Shown here one piece after another: positions 5,949-40,771 of a stretch of 64,000 nucleotides of DNA. This DNA is from Pseudanabaena galeata CCNP1313 (GTDB taxonomy: Bacteria > Cyanobacteriota > Cyanobacteriia > Pseudanabaenales > Pseudanabaenaceae). The notes beneath the pieces were generated by a model. It worked only from the letters and a program-made list of their open reading frames with translations, had not been told where the DNA came from and made no database searches. A program made the translations under genes and the position numbers. The stretch covers positions 4,578,501-4,642,500 of the forward strand of contig NZ_CP112874.1 in the NCBI RefSeq assembly GCF_029910235.1, read 5' to 3'. Within the stretch, counting starts at the first letter, position 1, and the number at the start of each line of letters is the position of its first letter.

Positions 5949-5980
5949 GCCTAAAAGCGTCGCTTGGCGACGTTTTTAGG
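5949..5980. terminator. Shared terminator between ald and ecfT
   Basis: CCTAAAAGCGTCGC-TTG-GCGACGTTTTTAGG lies between two convergent genes; the ecfT stop codon (5976-5978) lies in the stem. Confidence 0.8.
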
Positions 5981-6824
5981 TGTAAAGCAACCATGCAAAT
6001 TTGCCAATACCGAAGCCAAAATATAAAGCGATCGCCGTTACAAATAATAAAATAGAACCAGTCATCAATAGGTAATCAGGAGTTGTTAAAGCGGACTGAT
6101 GCAGATAGGTACGATTGGAACTACCTGAAAAAGCTTTTGACTGCAAGACAATTTCTAACTTTTGCGACTTTGAGAGGGAATTTAAGATCAAAGGTACGGC
6201 AACTTTGGCATAAACTTGCGCTTTTTTTAGCCAGCCCATTTTCTCGAAATTTAGACCACGTAAGCGCTGTGACTCAATGATCGATTGGACTTCCTCTAGT
6301 AAAAGTGGCACAAATCGCAGAGTCGATGAAAAGATAAACACCACTTTATAAGGGATTTTGGCGCGTACCATGCCCACTGTCATCTGATTAACATCTGTCG
6401 TAAAAATTGCTAATGGAATTACCAAAATCATCGTCAACGTTTTAAAAACAATATTTAATCCGTAAAGCGTTCCCTCTAAACTCATCTTTGCACCGCCAAC
6501 TATCCACCATGTTTGGGGCAAGCTCAACAGAGTTGTGAGTTCCGTTTTATGAGTCAGTAATTTAACTTGTTCTACATTAAAAAATCCCATACTCAAAATC
6601 AGAAAAATATAAAAAGGAATCATCACTTTGAGAATAGTTCCTAAATAGTTGAGTCTGACTCCAGCCAGAACACAAGCCGCAATCACGCTCAGCATCAACA
6701 CCCCCCCTGAGATCGGGCTTTCCCAAAGAAAGGCAAGAATGGTAACTGAGAGCATCACCACCAACTTAGAGCGAAAGTCTAAGCGGGTAAATAAAGAGTC
6801 ATATTTAACAGTTTGTAATTTCAT
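5976..6824 (-). CDS. ecfT: Energy-coupling factor transporter transmembrane protein (EcfT/CbiQ family)
   Basis: A membrane protein of 282 residues with about five or six hydrophobic segments and, between them, a cytoplasmic stretch with A-K-I-P-Y-K-V-V-F-I-F-S-S-T-L-R-F-V-P-L-L-type and E-S-Q-R-L-R-G sequences, which resemble the coupling helices (A-R-G motifs) of EcfT proteins. With the A-A' ATPases encoded at 8946-10676 it would form the energising module for a vitamin or metal uptake system; the S component is not in the window. Its ATG overlaps the stop codon of the methyltransferase gene by four bases (ATGA), so the two are translationally coupled although functionally unrelated. The R-M pair therefore interrupts an ECF operon. 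Confidence 0.88.
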   Translation of the reverse strand: MKLQTVKYDSLFTRLDFRSKLVVMLSVTILAFLWESPISGGVLMLSVIAACVLAGVRLNYLGTILKVMIPFYIFLILSMGFFNVEQVKLLTHKTELTTLLSLPQTWWIVGGAKMSLEGTLYGLNIVFKTLTMILVIPLAIFTTDVNQMTVGMVRAKIPYKVVFIFSSTLRFVPLLLEEVQSIIESQRLRGLNFEKMGWLKKAQVYAKVAVPLILNSLSKSQKLEIVLQSKAFSGSSNRTYLHQSALTTPDYLLMTGSILLFVTAIALYFGFGIGKFAWLLYT

Positions 6825-8260
6825 TCTTTCTCTAGTAATGCGGTTAAATTTAAGCTGTTTAAGATACTTGATTTAATTGGACGCTTTTCGTCCCAAAAAA
6901 TTTGAGATGAGTAAAAAGAGATCGCTTGCTCTGAGGTTAGCAGTTCAAAAGTCTTATTAGCAATTTGTTCATCATTAAATCCTAAGAAATAAACTGTGTC
7001 ATCAAAAACTATTTGCTTATTATCCAGCTTACTAATTAATCTAAACTCTAATTTTTTATAGAGTCCACAAATAGCAATTTTCCAAGGGGTAAATGTATAA
7101 TTTCCAACACCAAAAATTGAAAATTTAGGATTATTATGATAGATTTTGCTTTTTCGAGCATTTAGATACTTAGCATGAGATTCTAAATAATTCCATGTTT
7201 TTGGAGCTAAATCTTTAATATATTCAGTTGGTTCACCAACAAATTTTTGAGTAACTAAAACATATCGATTAGTAGATTTTATGCGATTTTGTGCAATGTC
7301 AGATCCCTTCATTAAGGGGTATAAATAAGTTTCTTCAATATCAATAGACTCACCTAGCCCATTAACAAATGATTCACCGATTTTATTCAATTCCATTACT
7401 CTTGAACAATCATGTTTAATTCCAGAGCGCCATTTTGTTTTAGTATTTGTATTATATAAATTACTCATTTTTTCAAAAGAATCTATATCTCTAATGAGAA
7501 TATTATTTCTATATCCAATTCTTTTACTCTCTGTTTGACTAAGACTACTAAATACATCGCAAAAGTAATGCTTTGAGTTTGGATTAAACTTACAAAATAA
7601 TAGGCAAGCATCAACTGTTGCACTAAAATACTTTTGAGTATCAATCCCATATGTTGCACAGTACTCAAGATTAAGATTATGAGAATAAAGATAATTTAAT
7701 AGTTTTCTGGCGACAGAAGTTTTACATAGCATTGCTAAACAAGCATTGCGATCTTGAAGCCATTGCGAAAACTGTATTAACATCCATTCAGAAATATCAA
7801 AGTTACTTTTACCTGTAATTGCATCTATCCCATTATACTTTTGGAAATTATTTTTTTTTGGTAAATTCTTGCTGTTAATACTTCCTTGCTGTGAATTCGT
7901 TACCCAAGGAAAGTTGCCAAGCACTAAAATTTCCCCAGCTATTTGATTGATATATGACTGCCACTCAAATTCAAAAAAATCTTTGTTGTGCAACTCAATT
8001 CTTGGATCTTGAGAGAATTTCTGATTATTTTTAATTTCCTGTAAGTATTGATTATTGATCTCAATACCAATAATCCTATTTACTCCTGAGAAAATAGATG
8101 AAGCAGCATTAATAAAATTACCAATCCCACAAGTTGGCTCAATAATAATATCAGGACTAACGTTAAGCTGAAGTAACTGCTGACAAACTTTTTCTGCTAG
8201 TTCGGGTGGTGTCTGAAAATCCCCATATTCAATTTTTGCTTTTTTATCAGTGTAAATCAT
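6821..8260 (-). CDS. Type II adenine-specific DNA methyltransferase (N6A)
   Basis: A 479-residue protein. The SAM-binding motif I reads I-I-I-E-P-T-C-G-I-G-N-F (residues about 38-49) and the catalytic motif IV reads G-N-F-P-W-V-T (about 131-137), an NFPW variant of the NPPY/W motif. The rest is a poorly conserved target-recognition half. The upstream endonuclease gene ends in TAATG, so its stop overlaps this ATG by one base, a tight R-to-M coupling. It protects the host by methylating the site that the partner cuts; the recognition sequence cannot be read from the sequence. Base composition is lower in GC than that of the flanking ECF genes, which fits acquisition. Confidence 0.88.
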   Translation of the reverse strand: MIYTDKKAKIEYGDFQTPPELAEKVCQQLLQLNVSPDIIIEPTCGIGNFINAASSIFSGVNRIIGIEINNQYLQEIKNNQKFSQDPRIELHNKDFFEFEWQSYINQIAGEILVLGNFPWVTNSQQGSINSKNLPKKNNFQKYNGIDAITGKSNFDISEWMLIQFSQWLQDRNACLAMLCKTSVARKLLNYLYSHNLNLEYCATYGIDTQKYFSATVDACLLFCKFNPNSKHYFCDVFSSLSQTESKRIGYRNNILIRDIDSFEKMSNLYNTNTKTKWRSGIKHDCSRVMELNKIGESFVNGLGESIDIEETYLYPLMKGSDIAQNRIKSTNRYVLVTQKFVGEPTEYIKDLAPKTWNYLESHAKYLNARKSKIYHNNPKFSIFGVGNYTFTPWKIAICGLYKKLEFRLISKLDNKQIVFDDTVYFLGFNDEQIANKTFELLTSEQAISFYSSQIFWDEKRPIKSSILNSLNLTALLEKE

Positions 8261-8919
8261 TAACTATTCCTATAAATTACTATCAATCCTTCTTCTTGTC
8301 CAGCAAGGTCAATTACTCTTCCGTATTGAAGTCGCCATTGCAAAGCATTGGAAATAGTTAAAAAGCCTTGAATAGGATGACTAATAATTATTTCATCAGC
8401 AATATTTGACAACTCGATTTCATCAATAGGTAAATTTCGATCAGCCATAAACGCTATCAAATCGTCTTTATTCCCTTCATTAGCTAAAATATTGCGAATA
8501 CCACGAGTCATCTGAAAATCGCTTGTTCTTTCAGCACTTACATAGATTGTATGCAGAATATTTAGAGTTCCAGTTCTATTAATACTATCGTCAGTTTTAT
8601 CATAGACAAAAATGATCAACCCGTAGCCTAGCCCAAAAATCTTTTGTCGGGCAGATTTGAATGGACAAGATGACTGAGGCTGCTTAATGCTTGTCACCTT
8701 AATATCTATGAGCAAACTTGGAAAATCAATTCCACTAGCAGAATTACCTTCTATAAAATCATATTTATTTTTGAGATACAGTCTGAATTTTTGTTCTAAG
8801 TATGTTCCAATAGCTTTTCCATCAGTTACTCCATAAAGTGTTGGTTGTGGATGAATAGACTCAATCTCTGAAAATAGAGCAGCTTCAGCACAAAGAGATT
8901 CTATAGTTAAAAGTGTCAT
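8260..8919 (-). CDS. Type II restriction endonuclease, PD-(D/E)XK type
   Basis: A 219-residue protein next to a cognate-looking methyltransferase. The probable active site is G-I-D65-F-P-S-L-L-I-D72-I-K74, a classical D-Xn-D-X-K arrangement after the G-T-Y-L-E-Q-K-F helix. The following S-C-P-F-K-S-A-R-Q-K-I-F-G-L-G-Y-G-L-I-I-F-V-Y-D-K segment is also typical of small type II enzymes. I do not recognise the specificity. It is encoded before the methyltransferase; the stop-start overlap (TAATG) at 8258-8262 couples their expression. The function rests on the motif and context, not on overall similarity to a named enzyme. Confidence 0.8.
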   Translation of the reverse strand: MTLLTIESLCAEAALFSEIESIHPQPTLYGVTDGKAIGTYLEQKFRLYLKNKYDFIEGNSASGIDFPSLLIDIKVTSIKQPQSSCPFKSARQKIFGLGYGLIIFVYDKTDDSINRTGTLNILHTIYVSAERTSDFQMTRGIRNILANEGNKDDLIAFMADRNLPIDEIELSNIADEIIISHPIQGFLTISNALQWRLQYGRVIDLAGQEEGLIVIYRNS

Positions 8920-8945
8920 AGTAAAAGGGATAGCTGGTATTTATC

Positions 8946-10676
8946 TTAGCCTATAGTGCTTTGTGTTTGAATGAAACAACTGGCTAATTCTGTGGGGGTA
9001 ATTAGAGGATAGTCGCGATCGCAAAAAGCACTCAGCTTTTGCGATAACATCACTGATTGCGGTGGCGTGAGATAGGTAGACTCTAGCAAATCAGTTTGAT
9101 GATAGGCTTGGCGCAACGGTGCATCTAGTAAGATCGTACCTTTTCCCATCACGATCGCGCGATCGGCATAGTCGGGCATTAAGTATAAATGGTGCGTAAT
9201 TACAATTACAGTTTTCCCCATTTGATGCAATTGCCGACTGACTTGTAAAATCGAAGAAGCACCCTGATAGTCTTGCCCTGTCGTCGGTTCATCAAAAATG
9301 ATGATCTCAGGATTCATTGCTAATAGGGCTGCAATCACGATGCGTCCACGTTCTCCTTTGGGTAAAGATAACGGATGAGCATGGCGCTGTTCCCAGAGTT
9401 GCATGGCTTTAAGACTGCGCTCAGTTTCTTTCTTGACGACATCAGGCGCATAACCAAGAAAAGGCAAAGCAAAAGCAACTTCCTTCTCAACGGAAGTATT
9501 AAAAATTTGGTTGTCAGGATTTTGGGCAAGGTAGCCGATGGATTGAGCAAGGTCGCTGACGGATAGCTCTCTGGTATCGCGATCACCTACTAATACTTTG
9601 CCTGATGTCGGTTTTAGCAAGTTGAGAAAATGCTTAACCAATGTACTTTTACCCGCACCATTCTGTCCCACGATCAGCACGTATTCACCCTCATGGATGT
9701 CTAGCGAGACATTTTTGAGAGCTTCCGTACCATCGTCATAGGTATGTTTGAGATTTTGAACTGAGAGAACGGGTGGTCTGCTACTGCGAGTCGGAGTTGT
9801 AAATAGGGGCGGATCATTGGGGAGAATTTGCGATCGCAGTTCAGTTAAAGCTGCTATACCCGCATCCAAAGTAACGGGAATCTGCGGAATATTAATTCCC
9901 TTGTGCTGAATTTGGCTAAAAGCTTGAGCAACTTCGGGCGGACGGAGTTTGTTTTGTTCTAGTAAATCAATCTGTGCGTAGATTTCATCGGGAGTGCCGA
10001 CGGCTAGCAATTTCCCCTTTGAAAGCAAGGCAATGCGATCGCAAAATTCTGCCATTTCTTCCGCAGCATGGGAAACCATGACGATTGCTACGCCGAGTTC
10101 TTCTTTTAATTCTCTGACTGTAGCAAAGACTTCTTGGGAACCAATGGGATCGAGTTGCGAAGTGGGTTCATCAAGAATTAATAAATCAGGTTGCAGTGCT
10201 AAGGCGGCGGCAATGGCTAAACGCTGTTTTTGACCACCTGAAAGCTCTTGGGGATTCTTCTTTTCAAAGCCTTCCAAACGAACTGATTTTAAAACAATGG
10301 GAATGCGGCGCAGGATTTCTTCACGGGGGACACAGAGATTTTCGAGGGCAAAGGCGATCTCATTTTCGACGGATGTAGCGGTAATCTGGATTTCAGGATC
10401 TTCAAACACAATCCCCACATGACGCGCTAGTTCACTGACGGGATGTTCGAGGCTATCTAATCCTGCGATCGCAATTTTGCCAAAAAAACGTCCACCGTAA
10501 AACTGGGGAACGATGCCAGTGAGGGCAAGACATAGGGTAGTTTTACCTGCTCCTGTCGCGCCAATGATTCCTAAAAATTCTCCTTTGTTAATGGTTAACG
10601 AGATATCTTTTAAGACTGTCTCTTTGGAGTTGGGATAGATATAGGAAACTTTGTCTAAGACCGCGATCGCTTGCAT
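8946..10676 (-). CDS. Fused ECF transporter ATPase (two ABC domains, EcfA-EcfA')
   Basis: A 576-residue protein with two complete ABC ATPase domains. The first has Walker A G-A-T-G-A-G-K-T-T (about residues 39-47), signature L-S-G-G-Q-K-Q-R and Walker B L-L-I-L-D-E-P-T. The second has Walker A G-Q-N-G-A-G-K-S-T (about 337), a divergent signature L-S-L-P-K-G-E-R-G-R and Walker B I-I-I-F-D-E-P-T. The fused A-A' arrangement plus the EcfT gene 2.1 kb downstream on the same strand identifies an energy-coupling factor module. The substrate is unknown. In an ordinary operon EcfT would follow directly; here the R-M pair lies between. Confidence 0.93.
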   Translation of the reverse strand: MQAIAVLDKVSYIYPNSKETVLKDISLTINKGEFLGIIGATGAGKTTLCLALTGIVPQFYGGRFFGKIAIAGLDSLEHPVSELARHVGIVFEDPEIQITATSVENEIAFALENLCVPREEILRRIPIVLKSVRLEGFEKKNPQELSGGQKQRLAIAAALALQPDLLILDEPTSQLDPIGSQEVFATVRELKEELGVAIVMVSHAAEEMAEFCDRIALLSKGKLLAVGTPDEIYAQIDLLEQNKLRPPEVAQAFSQIQHKGINIPQIPVTLDAGIAALTELRSQILPNDPPLFTTPTRSSRPPVLSVQNLKHTYDDGTEALKNVSLDIHEGEYVLIVGQNGAGKSTLVKHFLNLLKPTSGKVLVGDRDTRELSVSDLAQSIGYLAQNPDNQIFNTSVEKEVAFALPFLGYAPDVVKKETERSLKAMQLWEQRHAHPLSLPKGERGRIVIAALLAMNPEIIIFDEPTTGQDYQGASSILQVSRQLHQMGKTVIVITHHLYLMPDYADRAIVMGKGTILLDAPLRQAYHQTDLLESTYLTPPQSVMLSQKLSAFCDRDYPLITPTELASCFIQTQSTIG

Positions 10677-27399: not shown

Positions 27400-27512
27400 G
27401 CTGTCGCCATTCTTGTTAGAACATAAAACCCAGATAGTGTGAGGCGGCGCGAAGCGCCGCCTCACACTATCTGGGTTTTGATTTGTCCTGATACAGGTGG
27501 CTATAGCTATAT
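27396..27512. mobile_element. TATAGC-end MITE, family 3 variant
   Basis: TATAGCTGTCGCCATTCTTG at the left, ...ACAGGTGGCTATAGCTATA at the right, central stem AGTGTGAGGCGGCGC / GCGCCGCCTCACACT. Closest relative is 47993-48108. A further hairpin CAAATGA...TCATTTG (27519-27547) follows. 27129-27616 holds no gene. Confidence 0.75.
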
Positions 27513-27565
27513 AGCGATTTTCAAATGAATGTATACTCATTTGAAAACAAAAAATCAATCTTAGT

Positions 27566-27618
27566 AAAGGTTTAGAGATTTCATTTTGCCGTAGTCAAAA
27601 TGAAATCTCTAAACCTTT
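27566..27618 (-). terminator. Very long hairpin at the ldpA stop codon
   Basis: AAAGGTTTAGAGATTTCATTTTG (27566-27588) and its perfect complement (27596-27618), 23-bp arms around a 7-nt loop. The ldpA stop codon lies in the arm. Likely terminator or RNA-end protection for ldpA. Confidence 0.75.
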
Positions 27619-30223: not shown

Positions 30224-31993
30224 TTAAAGTTGCTTATGCCTTAAAAGTCCTAATACAAGAAGAATATGAATTAGCCTTTCTACAACAACTTGGGAACATT
30301 TATGTTGCATGGAAATGCCATGACAAACATCATTACGGATATTCCAGCCTCGTTGATCGGTTAAAACTACTCGAAAATAAAGAGAAGCATCTTCACCTAA
30401 TGCCTGTTTTACCTGTTCACTTCGGAGAAGATCATCAAGTGTTATCAAGTGAAAACCACCACCTCGTCCACGCTTTAAAACTGTCCCGCCAGAAATTTCC
30501 ACCAGTTTTCTCACAGTTGCCTCAATCTGTGGAATGAGTAGATGAGTAGCCACTACATAATCTTGTTCAAGATATTTTTGAATTCCTTTAAGTAAAAAAT
30601 CTCTTTGGTTGTCTACAAAAACTGGAGACTTAAATAAGTAGCTAACTAAATTATCAGAATCAAGACCAAATTGGTTTATTACTCTGGATATAGTTGCATT
30701 TAAAAATATCGCAGATATATCCATTCTTTGAGACATTTGACTCACAATATTTCCATCCAAGTCCTCTTCTAAAGAACCTACAGTCGCAATTATCCTTCCT
30801 TGTTCGTCAGTTATTTCCTTTGTAAAGAGAAAGCTAATAGGAGCCTTCTCCGCAAGCTCCTGTAACTGTTTCTTAATCTCACAACGTTGTGGAATATGCT
30901 TTATTGCAATGCGAGTAAGAGACTTTTCAAGATCACCGTCTAACATTTGCTCAATATAACTTTCGATTTCATTATGAGAAATCTCCATTTCATAGGATAT
31001 TAATTTCATATCATCGTATACCCTAGGACTGATATCTTGGATGATTCTTAAAATACGCTTTGCATCATTGACAAGCTCATATTCTGTATAGACATGATGC
31101 ATGTGTTCTAGCCAACCAGAAGCGATCAGAGGCTCTGCTTTACTAGCAGCACTTTCAAAAGAATACCCCAGTGTTCTTATGACACGAGAACATTCTTCTT
31201 TAAGTTTTTTTGAGCGATAATAGCGAGCTAGTCTTTCAGCAGCTTTTTCGCATATCCAAGGTTCTTCTCCATCTTTGAGTCTATTTAGTCTATCTTCGAG
31301 ACACTCTATCACTCCCTTCTCTTCGTCTGTGGAAAGAAAAACTTTTTTGTTATCAATGAGTAAATCGAAACTGAAACCCCAGAGATTTGGTTTAGAATCT
31401 TCAGCGATAAAACGCTCGTAATCTAAAATTATTTCTTTTGCACTTGTAATTAGTTCTTGTTTTTTAAAGGAAGTTGCAATGAATAAAGCCCGTTCAAGCT
31501 TCTGGATAATGTCAACCTCATTATCATGATTTCTTTCTTTAGCTACTTTAAGTAGTGCCTGACAATATGTAGTTGCTACTGAATGATAATGATGAGGCTT
31601 TTCACCAGTTACTTTTTGAGTAAAATCATACACTAACCCTGCGTAACGTGCTTGCATGAGCGAATTACTTGTTGATTGAAATCTCTGAGTCCAATAGGAA
31701 ATAACCTTTGCATTAACTCGTTGAATACTAGGACTTTCCATCATTCTTCCATCTTTTTCTGGAGCGGTCATCATTGGTCCAAAATATGTTCCCCAACCAC
31801 TGTTGTGATTAGCAGCATTCTCGTAAAAAGAGAATGCCATTATTTCGTATATCCATTCCTGACAAGGTTCTATTTCTTCGTTGTTGTTATCTCTCAGCAG
31901 TCCTAATTCCAGCTTAATATCATATTCAGAAACATCTATTAATGTTTCAAGGGCAATAAGTTTTTCATCTAAGGCATCTTTTGAGGGATTCAT
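30224..31993 (-). CDS. Large helical protein with a C-terminal HEPN-type RX4H motif (DUF4209-like)
   Basis: A 589-residue, mostly helical cytosolic protein. The C-terminal region holds R553-N-D-V-C-H558, an RX4H arrangement in an amphipathic context (G-W-N-I-R-N-D-V-C-H-G), as in HEPN ribonucleases and DUF4209 proteins. Upstream are features of that domain (A-T-H-L-L-I-P-Q-I-E-A-T-V-R-K-L). The N-terminal 400 residues look like TPR-like or armadillo-like helices; I do not recognise them. It lies in a defence-rich stretch between a broken TA module and a small antitoxin-like gene, so a phage-defence role is plausible but inferred. It has no obvious partner gene. Confidence 0.72.
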   Translation of the reverse strand: MNPSKDALDEKLIALETLIDVSEYDIKLELGLLRDNNNEEIEPCQEWIYEIMAFSFYENAANHNSGWGTYFGPMMTAPEKDGRMMESPSIQRVNAKVISYWTQRFQSTSNSLMQARYAGLVYDFTQKVTGEKPHHYHSVATTYCQALLKVAKERNHDNEVDIIQKLERALFIATSFKKQELITSAKEIILDYERFIAEDSKPNLWGFSFDLLIDNKKVFLSTDEEKGVIECLEDRLNRLKDGEEPWICEKAAERLARYYRSKKLKEECSRVIRTLGYSFESAASKAEPLIASGWLEHMHHVYTEYELVNDAKRILRIIQDISPRVYDDMKLISYEMEISHNEIESYIEQMLDGDLEKSLTRIAIKHIPQRCEIKKQLQELAEKAPISFLFTKEITDEQGRIIATVGSLEEDLDGNIVSQMSQRMDISAIFLNATISRVINQFGLDSDNLVSYLFKSPVFVDNQRDFLLKGIQKYLEQDYVVATHLLIPQIEATVRKLVEISGGTVLKRGRGGGFHLITLDDLLRSEQVKQALGEDASLYFRVVLTDQRGWNIRNDVCHGISMQHKCSQVVVERLIHILLVLGLLRHKQL

Positions 31994-37741: not shown

Positions 37742-40700
37742 CTAGGATTCCTTTTGTTCAACGATCGCAATTTCTTGTTCTGTTAATTCATATAATTGAT
37801 AAACCAAGCGATCAATTTGGCAATCAATCACTTCGATCTGCTTCTCAATCATGTTTTTTTCATTTGGCGAATTGACTAGCTTGAGCTTGTTATGGAGTGA
37901 CGTAATTTGCTCCACTAGAGAAACCATGCGATCGTGATTTTCGCGATCGTTCTTTACCTCAAAATCAATTAAACGAATAGGAAGCTGTTCGATAAATTGC
38001 GTAAAATAGCGAAAAAAGCCCCCACGAAGTTGAGTACTTACATTTTTTATATAAAAATTCAATACCTTACTATTCAAAAGTCCTAAAATATACTCGGGTG
38101 ATTCCCTAATCGTATTTTTAAAAGTAATTCCATAGCCACTAGTAAAAGTATATTCACCAATTTTGTCCATTGCAAAAGAAGCTCTATCTGCTATATCTGG
38201 CACAAGTATTTTAGGCGATTTCATCAACTCAAGATTTTTAGGATAAACATATCCATACCAATTGGAATTATTCATCTTTCCTTTTTCACGATTTGATAGA
38301 TATTCTCTATTTTGCAACAAATATGTAAATGTCTTTGGAAATGATAACAACATCTCATTTTCAGTAATGAGTTTGGCAGATCCTTTTTCTAAAAGATAAG
38401 GAATGATCACAACTTGATTAGAAGGAATTGTTCTATATTTTTTAATTTCTTTCCCTTTTAAAAACAAAGATACTAACTGGGATTCAATTTCAAATGTACT
38501 GTCAATTTTATTAGAATAAACAACAACAGATTTTTCATTTTTTTCAATTAAATCTAAAACATATATCTTGTTTGCACTAGTGCGAATACCTTGAGAGATT
38601 TTATCTACTATATCTTTAGCCTTGACAGGCATTTTATTTAACCGTTCAAATAAACTTAAATCACTGCCAACAGGAAAATTCCAATTTTTATAAGTAATAG
38701 TTTCCACGTCTATTTTAGTGTCTATTGAACTAGCGAATTCACACCATTCTAAAATATTACTTATTTTTTTAATTTCACATTCAGAAGCAGCTACTTTATC
38801 CAAAAATATTAAACAAGTGTAAGTGGTTGGACCTGTAAAAACCTGTTGATCGCCAAAGTGGACAACTTCTGATAGGTGTTTGCCAGTAGAAATAATTTTG
38901 CGAATTGGTTCCCCATATTGGGCATTAAAAAATTTATGAGGTAAGATATATCCCAATTTACCTGTTTTATTTAATAGGCTTAATCCTTTTTCGAGGAATA
39001 CAACACATATATCATAATTTCCTTTGCTTGCCGCCAAGTAAGTTTGCTTGTAAAATTCGGTTTCTCTTGCTGCCCATTCTTTTAGAGTTTGAATGCGAAT
39101 ATAGGGTGGATTACCTATTACTGCATCAAAGCCACCTGATTTCATGATTGATGAAAATTCATTTTGCCAATCAAACACATTAATTCGATAGACTTCATCT
39201 TCTCTTAACAAACTCATCTGCACTTTGTCGTAAAAGCCAGAGTCAATTAAGGAATTACCACACTTAATATTATTATCTAAATCAGGTAATGCTCTTTCTT
39301 TAAATAGCCTTAATTGATTAGTAACACTTTCTTGAGATTCACCTTCTAAAACTCTTAATAACAAAGATAACTTAGTGACTTCAACTGCCTGAGCATCGAT
39401 ATCTACACCAAAAATATTGTCTAATAAAATCTTTTTCTTTTCAGTTGTCGTCAGTTGCCACCCAGATATTGATTCATAAATGGGAGAATTACGAGTAGGA
39501 TTTTTTAAATAATAATCGCGATACCATTCTAGTAAATATTGATATACTCCAATCAAGAAAGAACCTGAACCACAAGAAGGATCAAGAATTTTTAATTTCG
39601 CGGCTTGTTTAGCAGTTTTACCTTCTAATAATTTGCCAACAGTATTTTTAACAATGTAATCAACGATATAAACTGGAGTATAGTAAACGCCTCCCGCTTT
39701 TCGTACTTCGGGTTTGTCTTCTACAGTGACACCGAGTGTGCTTAGAGTAATTATTTTCCCAAGAAACTGCTCATACACCTGTCCAATAATTTCAATGGGA
39801 ATTACAGAAAACTCGTAGGGACTGGGATAGTAGAGATTCTTGATGATATTTTTTAATGGAAGATCACCAATGATTAAAGTTAAGGTGAAATTATCAAAAT
39901 CAGGTCTATTACGTTCATCTTTAAAATGAAACAAGCCTGAATTATAGCGATCATCAGCTTCTCGAAAAATTTGACATAAGCGATCATAAACATTACTGTC
40001 TTGTTGTAGTTCTTCTAATCTGCCATAGTTTTCAGTTCCACGATCTTCACAAATGCGTAAAAAGATGAGGCGATTGATAGTTATTTGTACGGCGAAGTTG
40101 AGATCACGAGATGTAATTTCAGGATTATAAAACACCAGATTTGCAGCTAAAATACTACGCCAATTCTCAATCTCATTCAAGAAAGCATCATCAACGGTTT
40201 GATTGCCTTTATGGATTGTTTGTAAAGTAATAAATTGGTTTAAAGAACCCGCCAAAACCGCCTCTCGCGAAAATAAGGCGGCTATTTCATCCCATTTATC
40301 TATATAGTCTGTGTATTTAAAATAGAGGATTCTAGCGACAGTTGGTAGATCTTTAACATTCGGTTGAATGCGACAGTCATATACTGCAAATTCTTCAAAA
40401 TCTGTGAGAATACTAACGGGTAAACTTGCTGACCAACCGTAACGTCGAAGTTGAAATGCAGGTTTAGTATTTTGAGCAATATTGATGGATGGCTTTTTTG
40501 CCTCTACAAAAAATTGAGGAGATTTACCAATCCGAAAGCAATAGTCTGGGGCTTTATGGGTGTCGCCTATTTTGACGCTGTACTCATAAATCACTTCTCG
40601 ATATGCTTCAGAGGATCTTTTTTCGTTACGAATATCCCAACCCAACGCTTCAAAAAATGGGGTGATAAAGTCGTTTTTTGTCTGAGTTTCGTTATAGCTA

Positions 40701-40771
40701 ATTGAACGATATTCAGTCTCATTTTGCTGAAAGCGCTGAACTAACTCAGAGATTTTGGCTGGGACACTCAT
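37742..40771 (-). CDS. Type IIG restriction-modification enzyme (Eco57I/TaqI-class)
   Basis: A 1009-residue single-chain enzyme. The N-terminal nuclease has D76 in A-P-D-Y and E90-A-K92 in F-F-V-E-A-K-K-P. Then comes a helical linker and an N6A methyltransferase with L-D-P-S-C-G-S-G-S-F-L (about residue 390-400) and V-I-G-N-P-P-Y-I-R-I-Q (about 555), followed by a TaqI-like target recognition region. It lies at the edge of the defence island next to nrdJ. No stop or shift, so probably functional; the recognition site is not predictable. Confidence 0.9.
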   Translation of the reverse strand: MSVPAKISELVQRFQQNETEYRSISYNETQTKNDFITPFFEALGWDIRNEKRSSEAYREVIYEYSVKIGDTHKAPDYCFRIGKSPQFFVEAKKPSINIAQNTKPAFQLRRYGWSASLPVSILTDFEEFAVYDCRIQPNVKDLPTVARILYFKYTDYIDKWDEIAALFSREAVLAGSLNQFITLQTIHKGNQTVDDAFLNEIENWRSILAANLVFYNPEITSRDLNFAVQITINRLIFLRICEDRGTENYGRLEELQQDSNVYDRLCQIFREADDRYNSGLFHFKDERNRPDFDNFTLTLIIGDLPLKNIIKNLYYPSPYEFSVIPIEIIGQVYEQFLGKIITLSTLGVTVEDKPEVRKAGGVYYTPVYIVDYIVKNTVGKLLEGKTAKQAAKLKILDPSCGSGSFLIGVYQYLLEWYRDYYLKNPTRNSPIYESISGWQLTTTEKKKILLDNIFGVDIDAQAVEVTKLSLLLRVLEGESQESVTNQLRLFKERALPDLDNNIKCGNSLIDSGFYDKVQMSLLREDEVYRINVFDWQNEFSSIMKSGGFDAVIGNPPYIRIQTLKEWAARETEFYKQTYLAASKGNYDICVVFLEKGLSLLNKTGKLGYILPHKFFNAQYGEPIRKIISTGKHLSEVVHFGDQQVFTGPTTYTCLIFLDKVAASECEIKKISNILEWCEFASSIDTKIDVETITYKNWNFPVGSDLSLFERLNKMPVKAKDIVDKISQGIRTSANKIYVLDLIEKNEKSVVVYSNKIDSTFEIESQLVSLFLKGKEIKKYRTIPSNQVVIIPYLLEKGSAKLITENEMLLSFPKTFTYLLQNREYLSNREKGKMNNSNWYGYVYPKNLELMKSPKILVPDIADRASFAMDKIGEYTFTSGYGITFKNTIRESPEYILGLLNSKVLNFYIKNVSTQLRGGFFRYFTQFIEQLPIRLIDFEVKNDRENHDRMVSLVEQITSLHNKLKLVNSPNEKNMIEKQIEVIDCQIDRLVYQLYELTEQEIAIVEQKES

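Follow-up and report, generated by a model that had tools for sequence, protein, structure and literature searches.

How is a toxic gene pair expressed, tolerated and removed when it lies inside a housekeeping pair, and does a start-stop overlap make a host gene dependent on such an insert? Both questions can be put to a direct test at a locus where the restriction gene (R) and methyltransferase gene (M) of a type II restriction-modification (R-M) system stand between two genes of an ECF-type transporter, EcfAA' and EcfT. The locus lies in a stretch of 64,000 nucleotides, analysed as a whole and referred to as the window; the genome studied is G000, and the genomes compared with it carry other G-numbers. 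Furuta et al. (2010) reportedly described R-M insertions and R-M-linked rearrangements; for an R-M pair between EcfAA' and EcfT, no description was found in the literature searched, which is not proof of absence. We consider it likely that a mobile R-M cassette was inserted between EcfAA' and EcfT, where it would be expressed by read-through from the Ecf genes and would be tolerated rather than locked in.

Layout of the locus and identity of the R-M pair

The four genes lie head to tail on the minus strand, according to open reading frame coordinates checked in the window. EcfAA' (8946-10676), the fused double ATPase, matches TIGR04520 in two stretches (465 bits, E 7e-140) and is followed by R (8260-8919, 219 aa), M (6821-8260, 479 aa) and EcfT (5976-6824), the transmembrane subunit of the CbiQ family (Pfam CbiQ PF02361, E 9.9e-30). 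The EcfAA' stop is separated from the R start by 26 nt; R overlaps M by 1 nt (TAATG, within GTTAATGATT), and the stop codon of M is overlapped by the start of EcfT over 4 nt (ATGA, 6821-6824, within AAAGAATGAAATT). Coordinates and junction letters thus bear out the four-gene arrangement with TAATG and ATGA overlaps described in the initial annotation. Profile searches identified both the EcfA/A' ATPases and EcfT, the components of an ECF module, whose S components are frequently encoded at other loci. Against the cobalt CbiQ equivalog, EcfT scores 89.6 bits, under the 111.8-bit cut-off.

The R-M pair seems intact and most likely works as an ordinary restriction defence, judging from its protein matches. 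R matches NF052465 at full length (347.9 bits, cut-off 290; residues 4-211 on positions 1-208 of 209) as well as PADLOC REase_II (E 1.2e-126), while the adjoining M is likewise intact against PADLOC MTase_II (E 6e-228; residues 5-472 on 4-472 of 475) and scores 21.3 bits against TaqI_C, under the 26.5 cut-off. M carries EPTCGIGNF and GNFPW, which we take to be methyltransferase motifs and which are retained in a comparison with two homologues; it is probably an N6-adenine methyltransferase. Residues D65, D72 and K74 of R are invariant across 30 aligned sequences and make D65...D72-x-K74 a candidate PD-(D/E)xK site. The alignment comprises 30 of the 39 first-listed sequences: L126, L133, L134 and L149 were omitted for internal stops in the chosen range, and L089, L114, L140, L148 and L152 were not re-entered. 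The AlphaFold model of R has a mean pLDDT of 89, and its best Foldseek matches in the PDB are mostly restriction enzymes, with SfiI, HincII, MutH, MvaI and SwaI ranking high and none at E<=0.001.

A scan of relatives found this R-M family to be common in cyanobacteria. Among the best 80 of at least 429 relatives, 65 have a match to R, partial in some; R is also present on nine plasmid records and one phage record. Like the pair studied here, a type II pair of family NF052465, most relatives with a measurable junction, including one on an Aeromonas plasmid, have R upstream of an overlapping M, whereas EcfT lies near the R-M genes in none of the best 80 of at least 429 relatives (flanks up to 6 kb). 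The R/M junction could be measured at 64 of these 80 loci, with a 4-nt overlap in 45 and a 1-nt overlap in eight; the counts are rough, with starts chosen by rule and 16 loci having no measurable junction. On the comparison with these relatives, the overlap of R with M is native to the cassette, and the ATGA overlap of M with EcfT is peculiar to the Ecf insertion.

The recognition site is probably TTCGAA, an indirect assignment that draws on one product name matching M only and on avoidance of the site. A plasmid gene of Nostoc sp. HK-01 annotated as 'type II restriction enzyme NspV homolog' matches M at 66.1% over residues 122-478; its record matched M only and is outside the nine plasmid records with R. 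A table in PMC4829253 gives TTCGAA as the site of NspV. The locus thus resembles NspV-type systems in its match to the annotated homolog and in the scarcity of TTCGAA in the genome studied (17 sites in 5.84 Mb, against 2739 for the reversed word), and differs in that the pair lies within an ECF gene pair. Among 20 genomes of the genus, TTCGAA density is 2.7-2.9 per Mb in the three with intact R-M, 8.5-10.4 in three with remnants, and 3.7-40.9 in the 14 without R-M, of which 12 are at or below 8.5. Across 150 genomes of the class, the median is 2.9 per Mb in seven with R (E<=1e-40) versus 41 in 143 without (one-sided rank test, p 1.6e-4, kinship uncorrected); G152 was kept among the seven despite a stop codon in its R match, three of the seven are at 8-18 per Mb, and three R-negative genomes fall below G000. 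Four other palindromes have no site in the genus DNA examined, although 23 and 86 would be expected for two of these; TTCGAA itself is found 0 times in the window against 12 expected, among many palindromes at zero. G020 and G011 stand out at about 40 per Mb, several times the density of the 18 others counted in the genus, which would fit a relaxed avoidance in these two.

Base composition sets the pair apart from its surroundings, as is usual for an R-M cassette. A GC profile upheld the earlier remark that the R-M part is more AT-rich: GC is 0.302 in M and 0.339 in R, versus 0.392 in EcfT, 0.454 in EcfAA' and 0.425 in the whole window, and among the 36 non-overlapping window open reading frames of at least 150 aa M has the lowest and R the third lowest value. 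In relatives, the R-M position lies below flank GC in 49 of 49 loci longer than 13,300 bases (fixed coordinates). The window holds two further AT-rich genes on the minus strand. One (37742-40771) is a second R-M system, a 1009-aa type IIG restriction-methyltransferase (PADLOC PDLC03604, E 7.6e-269; Pfam Eco57I and TaqI_C), and the other (30224-31993) encodes a 589-aa protein with DUF4209 that matches the candidate defence family PDC-S39 (E 7.9e-45).

Gene order and remnants across the genus

EcfAA' orthologues at E<=1e-150 were found in 23 of the 38 genomes of the order-level search, and these 23, which also have close EcfT orthologues, all belong to one genus, Pseudanabaena. At class level, 11 of 155 genomes have EcfT orthologues at E<=1e-50, and each of the 11 belongs to this genus, so that no outgroup shows the order of the Ecf genes. 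EcfAA' and EcfT are adjacent without R-M in 13 of the 23 genomes (G008, G011, G014, G018, G021, G022, G024, G025, G026, G027, G029, G030 and G032), flank an intact R-M pair in G000 only, and are apart in nine, on the same contig in G009, G013 and G016 and on separate contigs in G010, G012, G017, G019, G020 and G023. The synteny comparison thus sustains the proposal that a type II R-M pair interrupts EcfAA'-EcfT, whereas the premise that the two Ecf genes are obliged to sit together fails in the nine genomes where they are apart. The locus is like an ECF energizing module (EcfA-EcfA'-EcfT) in having a fused double ATPase and a CbiQ-family T subunit that adjoin one another in the 13 genomes, and departs from it in the interruption in G000 and in the nine separations; in this genus, ECF operons are poorly predicted by gene order alone.

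In five of the adjacent genomes (G018, G022, G025, G026 and G027) the TAG stop of EcfAA' lies 3 nt ahead of the ATG of EcfT, and in G008 EcfT is preceded by TTTAGACCATG, which resembles these clean junctions. The five genomes with 3-nt spacing indicate that a close fit of EcfT to the gene before it is native to the clade and not the insert's doing. A separation of another kind is seen in G009, where EcfT and EcfAA' lie about 566 kb apart in opposite orientation and the broken ends (L054:9410-9496 and L055:7878-7964) carry related palindromic repeats with 85% identity over 87 nt, which suggests an inversion through recombination between repeats.

Three of the nine genomes with separated Ecf genes retain remnants of the insert, a broken R at EcfAA' and the tail of M at EcfT. 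They represent two lineages, G016 and G012/G013, the latter two being nearly identical at the locus and counted as one. The retained tails comprise the final 54-70 codons of M, which are in frame and overlap EcfT by the same ATGA as in G000. In G016, the opening 26 nt of R remain behind EcfAA', where they run into an IS1-like element (InsA domain at E 1.6e-4 and 21.7 bits, under the 26.1 cut-off), and an M tail of 54 codons stands ahead of EcfT. Both halves are on one contig, oppositely oriented and separated by 43 kb, with outer neighbours as in the window (argG-PH-LON-ald at EcfT, TPP enzyme-ALDH at EcfAA'), an arrangement as after an inversion. In G013, a single contig, about 3 Mb separate EcfT from EcfAA' and R, which are on the other strand; codon 12 of R is a stop and a short repeat lies within the start of the gene, M is reduced to a 70-codon open reading frame ending in ATGA on EcfT (no other match to M was found at E<=0.001 in the M search), and Mutator-family transposase genes adjoin both halves. 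R is broken in both lineages, as would be expected if R must die before M goes. A short dispersed repeat (window 27510-27605; L063:5871-5995) has one copy within the broken R start of G012/G013; matches to the 125-nt query, not all of them separate copies, number 121 in G013, 123 in G012, 66 in G032 and 30 in G000.

These remnants bear on how many insertions took place. The left flank of R, AAAGCAYYRTAGGYTAAGAT, is common to G000, G016 and G013, as is the ATGA join on the right, and this homologous flank together with the identical junction argues for one insertion. Related cassettes could instead have entered one preferred spot independently in two clades, as the differing chromosomal contexts of the Ecf genes might suggest; we regard this as improbable, since left-flank bases, a 1-nt gap in a promoter-like block and the ATGA junction are all common, and direct repeats of at least 7 nt were not found between the flanks tested. 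The initial annotation had counted an M-EcfT pair found without EcfAA' as evidence against an insertion. Such pairs do occur literally, as the M tails of G016 and G012/G013, but R fragments beside EcfAA' in the same genomes mark them as descendants of the inserted state.

The same genomes speak to the addiction-like arrangement first proposed, in which R-M would be retained because loss of M would abolish translation of EcfT. R-M has been lost twice with EcfT surviving, and EcfT need not adjoin EcfAA'; the idea is therefore weak, and the R-M pair looks like a passenger able to be lost and not a lock on the transporter. The ATGA overlap does fit a lock, and both losses kept the M tail in frame to ATGA, as if EcfT needed a translated tail or a ribosome-binding sequence; EcfT is nevertheless intact in G016 and G012/G013, where R-M is broken or nearly gone, no M tail was found at EcfT in 19 of the 23 genomes, and the tails may simply lie where breaks fell. 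The tail dN/dS (0.13 and 0.09 on 54 and 62 codons) comes from too few sites to test constraint and cannot tell recent loss from it. Taken together, we hold it very unlikely that R-M is locked in. Slightly less remote, though still hard to favour, is a narrower version in which EcfT would have come to need the M tail alone, with the dead R-M persisting as a leader of 54-70 codons ending in ATGA; if true, a restriction remnant would be the translational leader of a transporter gene.

With a single insertion as the preferred reading, one genus displays it in several states: empty, intact, and in two states of decay with R broken in both. R-M insertion is a known kind of event, of which the intermediate states are unusually complete here. 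The cases of Kobayashi and colleagues, as presented in PMC3031569, are alike in having R-M versus empty sites, inversion of a locus and adjoining transposase genes; compared with these cases, the present locus has no target duplication found, a start-stop overlap with a transporter gene, and two readable states of decay.

Proposed expression of the inserted genes

We propose the following course of events. In the Pseudanabaena lineage, a mobile type II R-M cassette, with R overlapping M and a probable TTCGAA specificity, would have entered between EcfAA' and EcfT, the join placing the stop of M on the start codon of EcfT (ATGA). The result would be four genes on one strand, EcfAA'-R-M-EcfT. 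Terminators are not indicated above chance, with three terminator-like sites in the region against a shuffle mean of 4.1. With the cassette's -10-like box missing here, R-M would most likely be transcribed by read-through from EcfAA', and EcfT would lie on the same transcript, receiving ribosomes through termination-reinitiation at ATGA or by direct binding. In two lineages, a small repeat or an IS would then have disrupted R, and M would have shrunk to its tail, leaving EcfT intact.

The missing box is seen by comparison with relatives unlinked to Ecf genes. In 15 of 47 such relatives (loci with an ATG-starting R, out of 55 listed), TATGAT occurs in the 60 nt ahead of R, exactly at -32 in 10 of the 15, whereas letter shuffles give a mean of 1.7 and a maximum of 7 in 500. 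The exact hexamer is absent from G000, G016 and G013; their copies match up with the block around it (GGYTAAGAT...) in seven relatives picked for carrying the TATGAT box and have a 1-nt gap in common. In G000 this block (8936-8951, minus strand) overlaps the EcfAA' stop codon and reads GGCTAAGATAAATACC; the counterpart in G028 and similar relatives is GGTTAAGATATGATACT. The idea that the cassette lost its promoter by decay once under the Ecf genes is suggestive only, because the other 32 of the 47 unlinked relatives also have no exact TATGAT. A promoter scan gave a weak 9-of-12 match at 8925-8898 (minus strand), with 18 matches in total against a shuffle mean of 14.7. The dependence may thus be the reverse of that first proposed, with R-M relying on the Ecf transcript.

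Age and path of the insert

Between G000 and G013, R has a dS of 1.4 and the M tail one of 1.0, compared with 1.7-1.8 for EcfAA' and EcfT, and dN/dS of R is about 0.07, which indicates that R has been under purifying selection. Between G000 and G016, dS of the M tail is 0.24 (7 of 34 sites), below EcfAA' (0.37) and EcfT (0.61). These values imply that the insert is old and was functional for long, or that it derives from an old resident lineage. The initial annotation had considered a recent insertion; the insertion is borne out by empty sites and remnants, but the dS values of R and the M tail do not support its being recent. On these comparisons, the R-M insertion into the ECF gene pair is real and probably old.

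How the insert came to its present distribution is less straightforward. The Ecf genes occupy two chromosomal contexts by clade, argG-PH-LON-ald or histidine kinase-ClpS-CPBP (names by protein inspection). G025 is the sister of G016 in a two-gene tree and yet has a clean junction, which calls for clean loss, repeated gain or allele exchange; G032, close to G013, is likewise clean. Neighbouring genes conflict on the order of G000, G016 and G025, and quartet counts indicate mosaic ancestry among the three. The 160-nt and 100-nt flanks have only one 8-nt inverted word in common and no direct repeat of at least 7 nt, so that target duplication is not evident at the flanks tested.

The main competitor to insertion into the pair followed by exchange between species is vertical descent from an ancestral EcfAA'-R-M-EcfT arrangement with many losses. 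It would account for the identical junctions of two clades that are far apart, G000/G016 and G012/G013, for values of dS for R and the M tail that are not far under those of the Ecf genes, and for the scarcity of TTCGAA in most genus members without R-M. Yet the clean TAG-3 nt-ATG junction of five genomes in the G000 clade, and its counterpart in G008, would have to be re-created, and low GC and an unlinked distribution mark the cassette as foreign; we consider vertical descent possible but doubtful, and favour insertion into a pair that was already there. Recombination as the means by which the insert travelled was considered and set aside: in sliding identities there was no sign of G013 having acquired EcfAA' or EcfT sequence from a G000-like donor, and in each of the four segments compared its nearest genomes are still G012 and G032. 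ClpS-like genes, so named by inspection, lie after M in G028 (L068:130-486), where R-M is unlinked to Ecf genes, and after EcfT in G013 (L062:4350-4631), a coincidence that is probably due to chance.
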